Below, in pieces: positions 1 through 4,372 of a stretch of DNA of 64,000 nt (positions within the stretch are counted from its first letter, which is position 1; each line of letters begins with the position of its first letter). The notes beneath the pieces were generated by a model that saw only the letters and a program-made list of their open reading frames with translations, did no database searches and was not told the origin of the DNA. The position numbers and the translations under genes were made by a program. The stretch is from Succinispira mobilis DSM 6222 (lineage in GTDB: Bacteria > Bacillota > Negativicutes > Acidaminococcales > Succinispiraceae). The stretch is taken from the NCBI RefSeq assembly GCF_000384135.1, contig NZ_KB913028.1, positions 1,821,298 through 1,885,297 of the forward strand. The letters run 5' to 3'.

Positions 1-293
1 ATAACCACTGCTGTTGATTTAAATTCCGCTAGATTGTTTTGCAAAAATTCCTTTGCATGCCAAGGATATATTGCCAAAATAACTAAATCCGCTTTTCTAA
101 GCAACTCTTGCGTATTTTGAGTTGTTTTTTGAATAATTTCCTGTTGCCAAGCATATTTTAAAGTTTTTTCGTTGATATCCACGGCATAAATATTCTTATA
201 ACCTACTTTTTTTAAGGCTAATGCTATTGAGCCCCCAATCAAACCTAGCCCCACAATTAGAATATTAGAGTTTTTGCTAAAACCATCTTGCAT
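1..293 (-). CDS. tyrA: Prephenate dehydrogenase, N-terminal part (cut by window edge)
   Basis: Read on the minus strand from an ATG at 293-291 with no stop before the window edge, so only about 97 residues are visible. The N-terminus carries the Rossmann dinucleotide signature IVGLGLIGGSIALALKK, then an acidic residue after the second strand (AVDINEK), and a later segment ADLVILAIYPWH, as in NAD(P)-dependent prephenate dehydrogenases. The enzyme oxidatively decarboxylates prephenate to 4-hydroxyphenylpyruvate for tyrosine synthesis. It lies 129 bp downstream of a DAHP synthase gene on the same strand, consistent with an aromatic amino-acid cluster. The ribosome-binding site is weak. The catalytic domain is outside the window, so arogenate dehydrogenase is an alternative. 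This gene is too truncated to be listed by a simple ORF scan. Confidence 0.85.
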   Translation of the reverse strand, partial: MQDGFSKNSNILIVGLGLIGGSIALALKKVGYKNIYAVDINEKTLKYAWQQEIIQKTTQNTQELLRKADLVILAIYPWHAKEFLQNNLAEFKSTAVV

Positions 294-304
294 ATTACCA
301 CGTC

Positions 305-356
305 CTTATCTACTTATCTACTTATCTACTTATCTACTTATTCTACTTATTCTACT
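305..356. repeat. Short tandem repeat, octamer CTTATCTA
   Basis: Four perfect copies of CTTATCTA (305-336) are followed by two 9-bp variants CTTATTCTA and a partial copy. The array lies in the gap between the DAHP synthase gene and tyrA, just upstream of the tyrA start. An 8-bp unit is prone to slippage, so copy number may vary between isolates and alter the tyrA leader. There are no spacers, so it is not CRISPR. Confidence 0.9.
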
Positions 357-422
357 AAAAATACCAATATTATTTATCTACCATACTACCAACCTACTAC
401 AGTTTCTTTAATTGCTATATAA

Positions 423-1437
423 CTATATTTCTCTGCCCACAATTTGAGCAATCGCTTTTAAATCTTGCATCAAATTATCAAAACGCTCTGGTTTTATCGA
501 CTGTTGACCGTCACATTTTGCATTTGCAGGATCATTATGAACTTCAATCATTAAGCCATCTGCGCCTACTGCAACAGCTGCTTTAGATAGAGATTCAAAC
601 CATCCACCACATCCCTGCCGCATGACTCGGATCAACTACAATCGGTAAATGACTTAGTTTCTTAATTGCTGGCACTGCACTTAAATCTAGAGTATTGCGC
701 GTGTATCTTTCAAAAGTTCTAATTCCTCGTTCACATAAAATTACATTTTGATTGCCCCCAGCCATAATATATTCTGCTGACATCAACCATTCTTCAATTG
801 TTGCTGACAAACCTCTTTTTAATAAAATTGGTTTATCTGTTTTGCCCAACTCTTTCAATAACTCAAAGTTTTGCATATTTCTTGCGCCTACTTGAATTAT
901 ATCTACATCGGCCACAAAACGTTCAATTTTATCTGCCGACATAATTTCGCTGACAATTGGTAATCCTGTTTTCTTACGTGCTATTTTCAATAAATCCAAG
1001 CCCTCTTCTTGCATACCTTGAAAAGCATAAGGAGAAGTTCTAGGTTTAAATGCGCCACCTCTTAATATATTTGCACCCGAGGCTTGTACGCTTTTCGCGA
1101 TTGCGGTAATTTGAGCTTCGCTTTCTACGGAACATGGTCCTGCCATTACTACAATTTTCTTACCGCCAATCTTTACACCTTGTACATCAATTATACTATC
1201 TTCTGGATGGAAATTTCTATTGGCTTGTTTAAATGGTTCTTGTACTCGCATCACTCGATCGACACTATCATTAATAGTTAAAGACTCAATATCTAATTTA
1301 CTAGTATCCCCAACTATTCCAAAAATACAATATGAAACACCTTGAATTGGGTGAATTCCAAAACCTTTGTTTTCTAAACGTCCTTTTAATTTAGCTATCT
1401 CTTGCGGATTAGCATTAGGTTTCATTACAACTATCAT
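423..1437 (-). pseudogene. aroF: 3-deoxy-7-phosphoheptulonate (DAHP) synthase, copy 1, with one frameshift
   Basis: First step of the shikimate pathway: phosphoenolpyruvate plus erythrose 4-phosphate to DAHP. The protein has the N-terminal ferredoxin/ACT-like domain (about residues 1-70) seen in the Thermotoga/Firmicutes type I enzyme, where it mediates aromatic feedback. The barrel follows, with GPCSVES near residue 108 and the late motif [10 protein letters not shown]. The start is ATG 1437, with AGGAGTGACGAAA in front of it; the longer reading from 1455 lacks a site. One extra base in the A-run at 597-599 creates a premature stop after ...GMWWMV. The remaining 60 or so residues ([19 protein letters not shown]...) continue in another frame to 423. 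The homologous stretch of copy 2 has two A's there and reads through. It may be a sequencing error, and with it corrected the enzyme is about 338 aa. A probable leader-peptide attenuator lies upstream. Confidence 0.9.
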
Positions 1438-1476
1438 TTTCGTCACTCCTATCAATTTGCATAATTAAAAAGTAAT

Positions 1477-1507
1477 AAAAAAAGAGAACCCTTAATGAGA
1501 GTTCTCT
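1477..1507 (-). terminator. Intrinsic terminator / attenuator hairpin before DAHP synthase copy 1
   Basis: On the minus strand AGAGAAC and GTTCTCT form a 7-bp stem around a short loop, followed directly by a run of seven T's. It sits between the end of the aromatic leader ORF (1556) and the synthase start (1437), inside the transcribed leader. That is where an attenuator terminator would be expected. There is no gene end nearby for it to serve except the leader ORF. Confidence 0.8.
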
Positions 1508-1555
1508 AGTAGTTAGCTAAAAAATTTTCTACAATAACCTATAGTTCTTGCACAG

Positions 1556-1696
1556 CTATATAGTCATCGCGCACTCATTAAATTTATCCATCTTATTTAT
1601 TTTCAAGCATGCAAAGTAGCTAAAGCTAAAATAAAAGTAGCTCCAGCTAAAATATAAGCTTGTAAATAAAGAAGATGTTTTTAACAAGTTGCTCAC
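1556..1696 (-). CDS. Aromatic-rich leader peptide 1 (46 aa), putative attenuator ORF
   Basis: GTG start at 1696, preceded by AGGGGA at a 7-nt spacing, and TAG stop at 1556. Residues 11-28 read FTSLYFSWSYFYFSFSYF: 11 of 18 residues are Phe, Tyr or Trp. A second leader upstream of the other DAHP synthase has the same Y-F-S-W-S-Y at exactly the same residue numbers (15-20). The ORF is followed by an intrinsic terminator and then the DAHP synthase gene. By analogy with pheL/trpL attenuation, ribosome stalling at aromatic codons when charged tRNA is scarce would prevent terminator formation. An alternative frame over the same DNA (YILAG...) has no start codon with a ribosome-binding site. No known family is recognised, and the function is inferred from composition and context. 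Confidence 0.75.
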   Translation of the reverse strand: MSNLLKTSSLFTSLYFSWSYFYFSFSYFACLKINKMDKFNECAMTI

Positions 1697-1757
1697 AAAA
1701 ATTTCCCCTAACATTACATTTTTTTCTTTTAAAACTTTTTTATAAATCACTGTTACA

Positions 1758-1786
1758 ATATTAATTCATTGTCGTTTCTTTGTCAA
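1758..1786 (-). promoter_or_regulatory. Sigma-A-type promoter of leader peptide 1 / DAHP synthase copy 1
   Basis: Minus-strand TTGACA (1781-1786) and TAATAT (1758-1763) with a 17-bp spacer. Transcription would begin near 1750, about 55 nt before the leader GTG. The -35 flank (ACTTGACAA preceded by TTAACAAAA) is shared with the promoter of the second unit. Confidence 0.75.
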
Positions 1787-1807
1787 GTACTTTTGTTAAT
1801 ATTACCT

Positions 1808-3028
1808 TTATATTTCTCTGCCTACAATTTGAGCAATCGCTTTTAAATCTTGCATCAAATTATCAAAACGCTCTGGTTTTATCGACTGTTGTCCATCGCA
1901 TTTCGCATTTGCCGGATCATTATGAACCTCAATCATTAAGCCATCTGCGCCTACTGCAACAGCTGCTTTAGATAGAGATTCAACCATCCACCACATCCCT
2001 GCCGCATGACTCGGATCAACTACAATCGGTAAATGACTTAGTTTTTCTTAATTGCTGGGCACTGCACTTAAATCTAGAGTATTGGCGCGTGTATCTTTCA
2101 AAAGTTCTAATTCCTCGTTCACATAAAATTACATTTTGATTGCCCCCAGCCATAATATATTCTGCTGACATCAACCATTCTTCAATGTTGGCGACAAACC
2201 TCTTTTTAATAAAATTGGTTTATCTGTTTTGGCCCAACTCTTTCAATAACTCAAAGTTTTGCATATTTTCTTGCGCCTACTTGAATATATCATATCTATC
2301 GGCGCCACAAAACGTTCAATTTTATCTGCCGACATAATTTTCGCTGACAATTGGTAATCCTGTTTTTCTTACGTGCTATTTTTCAATAAATCCAAGCCCT
2401 CTTCTTGCATACCTTGAAAAGCATAAGGGAGAAGTTCTAGGTTTAAATGCGCCACCCTCTTAATATATTTGCACCCGAGGCTTGTACGCTTTTCGCGTTG
2501 CTTGATTAGGGGAGATTATGGCGCGCTTTTTCCCCGTCCACTCCCGCCAATCCCTACACTTGTATCATCTCTTTTCCTTTGCTCGTGATTTGAAGGCTTC
2601 TCTATGTCGTTCTAAATCGGTCCAACGCCATACTATCCGCTGTGACATACTTGTGCTTTGCTCTCGGCGTATGGTCTTCATACACTTGTACAGACTCCAC
2701 TTATTACCTACTCTTCCTGAATGGAAAATTTCTACCTTGGCTGTTATGAGATGGTTTTTTTTCTTTCAATTAGGGGGATTGATTTCTATCACCTTATTCA
2801 TTTCGTTCATAACGCTGTTATACAGCTTTAATTATACTCTCTTAAAATAGTAGGATTAACATAAAGAGTGCTCATAGCGTCCAACTTATTGTTAAAAGAT
2901 TATCGATAAAGACTTTTCTCTATTGAGCCTCAGGATGGAACTATTCTGGTACCCTTGTGCGATTATTTGCTTTAAATTTTTCTCTACTTCAATTAGGGGG
3001 GAATTTGGTTTCATAACAATTATCATTT
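1808..3028 (-). pseudogene. DAHP synthase, copy 2: broken, indel-rich, with an internal duplication
   Basis: The 5' end is clean: ATG 3028, preceded by GAGGAGTAGATACAA, encodes MIIVMKPNSP and about 30 more residues, a diverged relative of copy 1. The 3' end is also clean: 1808-1996 encodes the last 62 residues with real substitutions against copy 1. Between them, 1996-2498 matches copy 1 almost base for base but with many single-base insertions in or next to homopolymers (for example near 2045, 2057, 2085, 2231). About 2499-2765 is only recognisable as synthase by scattered matches (for example CCGCCAATC...TACA). Positions about 2709-2928 are a noisy second version of 2929-3153. Span 1221 bp minus a 220-bp duplication is about 1000 bp, close to the 1017 bp of an intact gene. 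An artefact of assembly or low-quality sequence is the simplest reading. A forward ORF at 2518-2850 lies entirely in this noise. Confidence 0.75.
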
Positions 3029-3153
3029 GTATCTACTCCTCTGCTTTAAATAATTCTTTTTAAATAACGTCAATAAAAAAAAGAGGACTCATTAATGAGT
3101 CTCTCTAACTTATTGTTAAAAGATTATCGATAAAGACTGTTTCTCTATTGAGC
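2709..3153. repeat. Imperfect ~220-bp tandem duplication of the copy-2 synthase 5' region
   Basis: The segment 2929-3153 (synthase codons ~33 to 1, attenuator terminator, end of leader 2) recurs in poor form at about 2709-2928. Anchors in the same order and spacing are CAATTAGGGGG at 2767-2777 and 2989-2999, and a 46-nt block at 2883-2928 matching 3107-3153 with a single one-base indel. Between the anchors similarity is weak, with many indels. This looks like two overlapping contig ends joined without merging, or a degenerate tandem duplication. Confidence 0.7.
3074..3106 (-). terminator. Intrinsic terminator / attenuator hairpin before DAHP synthase copy 2
   Basis: Minus strand AGAGAGACTCATT/AATGAGTCCTCT forms a strong stem whose inner 16 bp are a perfect palindrome, followed by eight T's. 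It lies between leader ORF 2 (ends 3145) and the synthase start (3028), exactly as in unit 1. Confidence 0.85.
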
Positions 3154-3306
3154 ACCCCTCAAGGAGAGCTCAGACCCAATCCGCAACTCATTAATTTGGT
3201 TAAAGTTATTTATATTTGCGTACACCAAAAAGCCAAAGCTATAATAATAACTCCAGCTAAAATATACGTATGCAAATATAAAAGAAAATATCGCCAAATT
3301 ATGCAT
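3145..3306 (-). CDS. Aromatic-rich leader peptide 2 (53 aa), putative attenuator ORF
   Basis: ATG at 3306, preceded by TTAGGAGATTAACG (a good ribosome-binding site), and TAG at 3145. It is too short for a 60-residue ORF cutoff. Residues 7-29 include FSFIFAYVYFSWSYYYSFGF, with 13 aromatic residues among 23. Tyr15-Phe-Ser-Trp18-Ser-Tyr20 coincides in sequence and position with leader 1, and the DNA there shares a 16-bp identity (TATATTTTAGCTGGAG). Downstream come a terminator hairpin and the start of DAHP synthase copy 2. The tail (about residues 31-53) is hydrophilic. The interpretation as a Phe/Tyr/Trp-sensing leader is inference from composition, conservation and position. No protein family was recognised. 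Confidence 0.75.
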   Translation of the reverse strand: MHNLAIFSFIFAYVYFSWSYYYSFGFLVYANINNFNQINELRIGSELSLRGAQ

Positions 3307-3350
3307 CGTTAATCTCCTAACTTTTTATCAAAATCATTTATTTTGTTAAC

Positions 3351-3379
3351 AATATACACCCTTAAAAACTTCTTGTCAA
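3351..3379 (-). promoter_or_regulatory. Sigma-A-type promoter of leader peptide 2 / DAHP synthase copy 2
   Basis: Minus-strand TTGACA (3374-3379), 17-bp spacer, TATATT (3351-3356). GTTAAC occurs both upstream of the -35 and just after the -10, and the ACTTGACAA -35 context matches unit 1, so a shared operator is possible. Confidence 0.75.
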
Positions 3380-3409
3380 GTTTTTTCGTTAACAAGATTT
3401 ACATTAAGC

Positions 3410-4372
3410 TTAATATTTTATCGAAAACGGCTTGCGATCATAGCTATGAACAGCATCAACAAAACGCACAGTTCCTGATTTAAAACGCATAGAAATAGAA
3501 TGTGTTCTTATTCCTTCGCCAAAATACTGAACCCCACGCAACAGTTCGCCTTCAGTAATAGCTGTAGCCGCAAACATTACATCGTCGCCAGTTACCAAAT
3601 CATCAATTGTCAAAACTTTATTTACGTCAGTAATACCCATTTTCAAAGCTCGTTTTACATCTTCCTCGTTTTCAGGGTACAAGCGTGCCTGCATATCTCC
3701 CCCTAAACATTTCATAGCCGCTGCCGCAATAACACCTTCGGGAGCACCACCAATTCCCATCAACATATGCACGCCAGTGCCTTCAATACCTGCACTAACA
3801 ATTGGGGAAACATCTCCGTCTTGAATTAATTTTATTCTCGCTCCAGCTTGACGTACTTCATGAATTATTTTGTCATGTCTAGGACGATCTAAAATAACTA
3901 CTGTTAAATCTGAAATTTCTCTATCTAAGGCCTGCGCAACATTTTTTAAATTCACAGCAACCGGCGCCGTTATATCAATTTTACCGCGCGCTCTTGGGCC
4001 TACCGCAATTTTATCCATATACATATCTGGAGCATGTAACAGACAACCTTTAGGAGCTATTGCAATTACCGCAATTGCACCATTTAAGCCCTTGGCTACT
4101 AGATTTGTTCCTTCTAACGGATCTACAGCAATATCAACTGCTGGACCACCAGCACCAACATTTTCTCCGATATACAACATTGGAGCTTCATCCATTTCAC
4201 CCTCACCAATAACAACTGTCCCACTAATATCAATTGTATCAAAGGCCATGCGCATTGCATCTACTGCTGCCTGATCCGCCCCAATTTTATCACCTTTACC
4301 CATTAATCTAGCGGAGGCAATTGCCGCAGCTTCTGTTACTCTTACAAACTCTAGTGCTAACTCTCGATTCAT
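3410..4372 (-). CDS. glpX: Class II fructose-1,6-bisphosphatase
   Basis: 320 aa, the usual length of the GlpX family. It hydrolyses fructose 1,6-bisphosphate to fructose 6-phosphate in gluconeogenesis. Visible signatures are the metal-binding [15 protein letters not shown] near residues 56-70 and DPLEGTN near residues 83-89, followed by the GlpX core ([31 protein letters not shown]-like). Start ATG 4372 follows AGAGAGGCG. It is transcribed in the same direction as pyrG upstream (84-bp gap) and ends just before the promoter of the aromatic leader unit. A gluconeogenic FBPase beside a DAHP synthase makes metabolic sense, since the pathway needs erythrose 4-phosphate, but the genes have separate promoters. 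Confidence 0.93.

Follow-up and report, generated by a model that had tools for sequence, protein, structure and literature searches.

A putative ribosome-mediated attenuator with aromatic sensor codons ahead of DAHP synthase genes in Negativicutes and Clostridia

Introduction

How might a bacterium of the class Negativicutes adjust transcription of its DAHP synthase gene to the supply of aromatic amino acids? In Firmicutes, control of aromatic genes is usually ascribed to T-boxes, TRAP or repressors, and a T-box binds uncharged tRNA directly, without an open reading frame. In Escherichia coli, pheL and trpL are the attenuators of pheA and the trp operon, each reading a single amino acid. The question is raised by the minus strand of a 64,000-nucleotide stretch of the Succinispira mobilis DSM 6222 genome (hereafter the window), where a short open reading frame crowded with aromatic codons stands ahead of a DAHP synthase gene. 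A preliminary description of the sequence had taken this element for a leader-peptide attenuator. Here we compare it with its counterparts in related genomes and conclude that it is very probably a ribosome-mediated transcription attenuator.

Results

The promoter, the GTG-initiated open reading frame with its ribosome-binding site, the terminator and the DAHP synthase start named in the preliminary description were all found again between 1786 and 1437 on the minus strand (Table 1). A translatable short reading frame rich in codons for the pathway's products therefore lies between a promoter and a structural gene, and an intrinsic terminator separates the two coding sequences. The distance from AGGGGA to the GTG codon is ~8 nt, and leader starts in relatives are preceded by ribosome-binding sites of the AGGTG or GGAGG type. 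Translation of the leader 1 frame yields MSNLLKTSSLFTSLYFSWSYFYFSFSYFACLKINKMDKFNECAMTI, which was recovered from its own genome by a profile HMM with E=7.5e-12, leader 1 itself being among the 34 sequences of that profile. The downstream gene begins with an ATG at 1437, contains the Pfam domains DAHP_snth_FXD and DAHP_synth_1, and is frameshifted near 600-640.

Table 1. Features of the two leader loci in the window (positions are those of the window)
Feature	Position	Strand	Description	Basis
Promoter, leader 1	1758..1786	-	sigma-70 type, TTGACA-17-TAATAT	consensus scan, 10/12 positions matching
Ribosome-binding site, leader 1	1703..1709	-	AGGGGAA	read directly off the sequence
Leader 1 open reading frame	1556..1696	-	46 codons; predicted GTG start 1696, TAG stop 1558-1556	frame conservation
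Aromatic run, presumed stall site	1613..1666	-	FTSLYFSWSYFYFSFSYF, 11/18 Phe/Tyr/Trp	aromatic columns conserved
Hairpin within the aromatic run	1617..1649	-	TAGCTGGAGCTA (1649-1638), 9-nt loop, TAGCTTTAGCTA (1628-1617), 12 pairs	fold
Box	1574..1581	-	TTAATGAG, inside the leader 1 frame, ~15 nt before the stop codon	complementarity
Intrinsic terminator, leader 1	1483..1507	-	hairpin AGAGAACTCTCATTAAGGGTTCTCT, then TTTTTTT (1482-1476)	
DAHP synthase, presumed regulated gene	423..1437	-	type I with ferredoxin-like regulatory domain	Pfam
Leader 2 open reading frame	3145..3306	-	MHNLAIFSFIFAYVYFSWSYYYSFGFLVYANINNF..., predicted ATG 3306; own tract hairpin	
Terminator, leader 2	3079..3102	-	core GACTCATTAATGAGTC, then T run	

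The tandem DAHP synthase locus is locally mis-assembled around window positions 1-3640. An N gap immediately precedes the window. Sequence at 1796-3060 is noisy and in part duplicated, and 1809-2501 is an additional noisy copy of the 3' part of DAHP synthase. Faulty assembly is thus the probable cause of the frameshifts seen in the DAHP synthase copies of the window. Positions 1-1675 and 2949-3636 are repeats of sequence before the gap, at 90% and 98.8% identity, respectively. Noisy repeated copies of the ends of DAHP synthase, tyrA and glpX were also observed across window 1-3640 and L037 4156-9934. Leader 2, which like leader 1 has a TTGACA upstream, stands before a broken DAHP synthase copy in the window, and a near-identical copy of it (L037 5591-) precedes an intact DAHP synthase gene just outside. 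The two leaders are clearly different from each other, so both are genuine sequences unaffected by the assembly fault. Tandem DAHP synthase genes are frequent in relatives, and the true order here is likely glpX - leader 2 - aroF2 - leader 1 - aroF1 - tyrA - aroB - aroA - aroC, in which the gene identities were confirmed by Pfam.

The initial count of 11 aromatic residues among 18 in FTSLYFSWSYFYFSFSYF held on recounting, and this density is rare by chance. Only three stop-free segments in the six frames of the window reach it, two of them being leader 1 and leader 2 (3306-3145), and none does so in five doublet-shuffled windows. The run might still arise by chance, from reading in the wrong frame a sequence whose next frame encodes a hydrophobic repeat (AYILAGATFILALATL), or belong to a small membrane protein. 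Over the leader 1 tract the next frame reads AYILAGATFILALATLHA, a plausible hydrophobic peptide when the window alone is considered, and in the window alone this frame is open across the tract of both leaders. However, it has no usual start in leader 1, and across 97 leaders it is closed by stops in 79, while the third frame is closed in 94. The aromatic frame, in keeping with the frame conservation that the preliminary description had proposed checking, is open in relatives, mostly with a ribosome-binding site upstream. Eight leaders contain a stop in the aromatic frame within the tested segment; since that segment opens ten codons ahead of the tract, it may extend upstream of the start codon. 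Because relatives keep only this frame open, we regard it as the coding frame and a chance reading as extremely improbable. The next frame was also considered as a small membrane peptide in its own right and rejected, being closed in those 79 relatives.

The same codons also fold into an RNA hairpin, which went unnoticed in the preliminary description. This hairpin, built by the aromatic codons together with their AGC and GGC neighbours, is itself under selection. Within the tract, 121 of 137 Ser codons are AGC, where 42 would be expected from neighbouring genes, and TTT accounts for 294 of 326 Phe codons (205 expected); Tyr codons are near expectation. Among the leaders of the order Acidaminococcales, these peptides show no AGC bias in their N-terminal part. 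Tracts are predicted to fold more stably than their synonymous recodings, with mean z of -2.6, -3.7 and -2.5 in three groups and z of -4.7 and -3.6 for leaders 1 and 2 of this genome. The 12 pairs of the hairpin are formed in 78% of cells across 70 distinct leaders, compared with 23-44% when the pairing is slid. Cells with changes on both sides of a pair number 46 against 22 +/- 5 in shuffles, and none of 300 shuffles reaches 46; as the 70 leaders are related, the shuffle figures are not strict probabilities, and it was the fold of the window sequence that supplied the structure. Residues 23 and 31 are joined by the strongest pairs and show covariation, the combinations being W-A, Y-Y, F-T and Q-F.

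These observations bear on two other explanations of the element. One is nascent-peptide arrest of the TnaC kind, where the ribosome would be stalled not by empty aromatic-tRNA sites but by the peptide itself or by free aromatic amino acids; the non-aromatic residues S, G, A, C and K are conserved more than codon counting requires, as such an arrest would predict. However, the conservation of Ser and Gly lies at the nucleotide level, Ser being nearly always AGC and swapping with GGC-encoded Gly, because these codons build the hairpin. That residues 23 and 31 vary as base pairs also argues against an arrest peptide, and aromatic identity is interchangeable in the leaders, whereas in arrest peptides it is not known to be. 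We therefore consider arrest improbable: codon bias, fold z and covariation indicate that the RNA hairpin accounts better for the conserved Ser, Gly and Ala.

The second explanation takes the conserved and covarying hairpin for a riboswitch or a protein-binding site, with the reading frame a mere by-product. Yet the open frame is retained with its start and ribosome-binding site while other frames are closed, aromatic codons persist even where pairing does not need them, and comparison with Rfam gave no match at gathering score and no convincing one below it. This makes such a reading very improbable. The T-box model (RF00230) gave no covariance-model match at the leader locus or in the window, with T-boxes before other DAHP synthase genes as the positive control, and the Rfam Trp_leader and Phe_leader models gave no match at gathering score and none below it. 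A T-box or other known RNA family was rejected on this lack of Rfam matches.

An attenuator would also need alternative pairings, and the box TTAATGAG can pair either with the 5' part of the leader or, as an antiterminator, with CTCATTAA of the terminator 5' arm and loop. Its counterpart in leader 2 is the pair TTAATGAGTT/GACTCATTAA, a 10-base match, and box/arm pairs in other lineages include ATGAGT/ACTCAT, TACGGGTA/TACCCGTA and AAGAATCTCT/AGAGGTTCTT. A terminator-like hairpin is present for all 97 leaders examined. The box region begins upstream of the stop codon or at most 20 nt past it in 81 of 83 leaders, and a ribosome finishing the peptide would therefore cover it.

The antiterminator was evaluated in 83 leaders by partition-function calculations compared with shuffled upstream RNA. 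The mean predicted probability that the terminator arm is held by upstream RNA is 0.64 with a stalled ribosome, against ~0.3 when the leader is ribosome-free or the ribosome is at the stop codon, and 0.39-0.44 with shuffled upstream RNA. In 75 of the 83 leaders the predicted value for the stalled state exceeds that for the stop-codon state. Most leaders are thus predicted to have an alternative antiterminator fold, which the preliminary description had put forward as a check; the prediction is clear for the two of this genome (0.84 and 0.95 when stalled, against 0.40-0.45 with shuffled upstream RNA). Taken alone, the leader 1 box duplex showed no clear gain over foreign or shuffled boxes. In Acidaminococcaceae, exchanging boxes among species gave no clean negative; this control is weak there because the boxes are alike and their duplexes with the terminator imperfect.

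Phe and Tyr codons dominate the leaders and, at aligned aromatic positions, the two residues swap freely. Trp codons are a minority: each of the two leader cores of this genome has one, and many relatives have none. The original proposal that one leader reads all three aromatic amino acids is therefore only partly supported by codon content, in which Trp is sporadic. These leaders may integrate Phe and Tyr supply, and at times that of Trp.

We surveyed the regions upstream of 72 DAHP synthase genes (59 loci) of Acidaminococcales and found the leader in most of these loci. A peptide of the pattern Y-F-x-F-S-W/Q-G/S-Y-x-F-S-x-G-Y-F precedes DAHP synthase in most Acidaminococcales, in other families of Negativicutes and in Clostridia, where the carriers include Clostridium chromiireducens, C. 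magnum and C. tyrobutyricum. The conserved short aromatic reading frame followed by a terminator that the preliminary description had anticipated upstream of Negativicutes DAHP synthase genes is thus borne out. The leader is absent in some relatives, for example family f2 (G001). Among 60 loci from other Negativicutes, an aromatic leader occurs in ~30 and a T-box (RF00230) in 16, with no case of both before the same gene; other DAHP synthase paralogues of the class sit behind T-boxes instead. One genome (G002; L040 2545-2795, L039) has two DAHP synthase genes, one with a T-box and one with an aromatic leader.

Alignment A1, of 34 leader peptides, then served as a profile for whole-genome searches. 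Matches were obtained in 52 of 61 genomes of the order, 86 of 200 of the class (overlapping sets) and 16 of 398 drawn from the phylum, the genomes that supplied A1 matching by construction. They are almost always single in a genome and followed directly by a DAHP synthase gene or another of the shikimate genes. Second sites precede EPSP synthase-chorismate synthase, shikimate kinase, shikimate dehydrogenase, prephenate dehydrogenase and prephenate dehydratase; in other Negativicutes, leaders stand before aroA-aroC, aroK, aroE, tyrA or pheA at L279, L280, L281, L284, L285, L286, L288, L292 and L294. Because genome-wide matches fall almost only before shikimate genes, the leader-bearing genes (DAHP synthase, aroA-aroC, aroK, aroE, tyrA and pheA) look like a regulon. 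A weak match (L293, E=0.006) has no shikimate gene behind it.

One second site lies before an ACT-domain protein. At L287, the protein behind a similar leader and its terminator is small, has two ACT domains and is possibly an aromatic amino acid sensor; the site lies ~2 kb from the leader that precedes DAHP synthase in that genome. Two sets of shorter leaders were also observed. In family f28 (L183, L187, L192, L195, L200) the leader is shortened, as in QYFYFWFFIQSTGKGLFGLR; its box and terminator form another pair, TACGGGTA/TACCCGTA, and it is apparently derived from the class-wide leader. In Clostridia and others (L146, L152, L158, L166, L168), DAHP synthase is preceded by aromatic leaders that are short and divergent, for example MKNSLSTKAYFGFYYYYFFPKK; the device may have been invented independently there.

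Discussion

In summary, sequence analysis establishes the reading frame, its aromatic residues, the covarying hairpin, the terminator, the complementarity of the box and the position ahead of shikimate genes. From these features we infer that ribosomes stall, which amino acids are sensed, and that transcription in the cell either terminates or reads through. RNA polymerase would initiate at the TTGACA/TAATAT promoter with a ribosome trailing on the leader frame. When Phe- and Tyr-tRNAs (perhaps Trp-tRNA as well) are charged, the ribosome would reach the stop codon and hide the box; the terminator could then form, and transcription would end ahead of the DAHP synthase gene. When charged aromatic tRNAs are scarce, the ribosome would stall in the aromatic run and leave the downstream box free to pair with the terminator 5' arm as an antiterminator, so that DAHP synthase and tyrA-aroB-aroA-aroC would be transcribed. 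If the leader is not translated, a single long hairpin is predicted, whose tip holds the aromatic codons and whose stem holds the box; this fold, too, would favour termination.

Devices of this kind are known. The E. coli pheL and trpL leaders share with the present ones regulatory codons, an antiterminator and a terminator; they differ in serving a single amino acid each and other genes, and their families have no Rfam match here. The T-box, through which aromatic genes of Firmicutes likewise come under tRNA-dependent control, precedes other DAHP synthase genes of the class. Ribosome-mediated attenuators in Firmicutes also include the His leaders of the Bacillus cereus group, Peptostreptococcaceae and Erysipelotrichales, which carry His codons and precede his operons (PMC9413887).

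The nearest candidates were compared by description. In the actinobacterium Corynebacterium glutamicum, a leader peptide with Phe and Tyr codons likewise precedes a DAHP synthase gene (aroR-aroF; Neshat et al. 2014, as related in PMC11802643 and PMC4046766); it responds to Phe and not to Tyr, and transcription is reported there to be higher under Phe limitation. As described in those accounts, aroR contains only Phe-Tyr-Phe, whereas the leaders studied here typically have 8-12 aromatic residues in 16, and add the conserved codon hairpin, several shikimate operons and a distribution across Negativicutes and Clostridia. The uORFC-13-1 motif, proposed by a motif screen, is a predicted upstream frame with one or more Phe codons that adjoins a terminator ahead of aroF (PMC8632094). 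Going by its description, it comprises 24 examples, from Acholeplasma and environmental sequences only, in which a U run encodes at least one Phe, and it was reported without the multi-aromatic tract or regulon of the present leaders (PMC8632094).

We found no prior description of the aromatic leader of Negativicutes and Clostridia in the open-access literature, and an earlier prediction in the subscription literature is therefore possible. Of the suggestion that this is an undescribed attenuator class of Negativicutes, what survives is the family, which is apparently undescribed in Rfam and the open literature; the kind of device is known, and Clostridia carry the leader too. On balance, we think it likely that these leaders form an undescribed and ancient family of structured attenuators in Negativicutes and many Clostridia, in which the sensor codons are also the strands of a selected hairpin, and which would integrate Phe and Tyr (and Trp in places) supply across a shikimate regulon.

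Looking forward, the family could be used for annotation, as a new Rfam-type family, and in Clostridium engineering. Codons that double as amino acid sensor and as hairpin offer a clean case of overlapping selection, seen in the AGC and TTT codon bias. If the proposed mechanism is true, a class-wide leader-peptide attenuator that reaches into Clostridium would constitute a widespread additional layer of control at the entry to the shikimate pathway.
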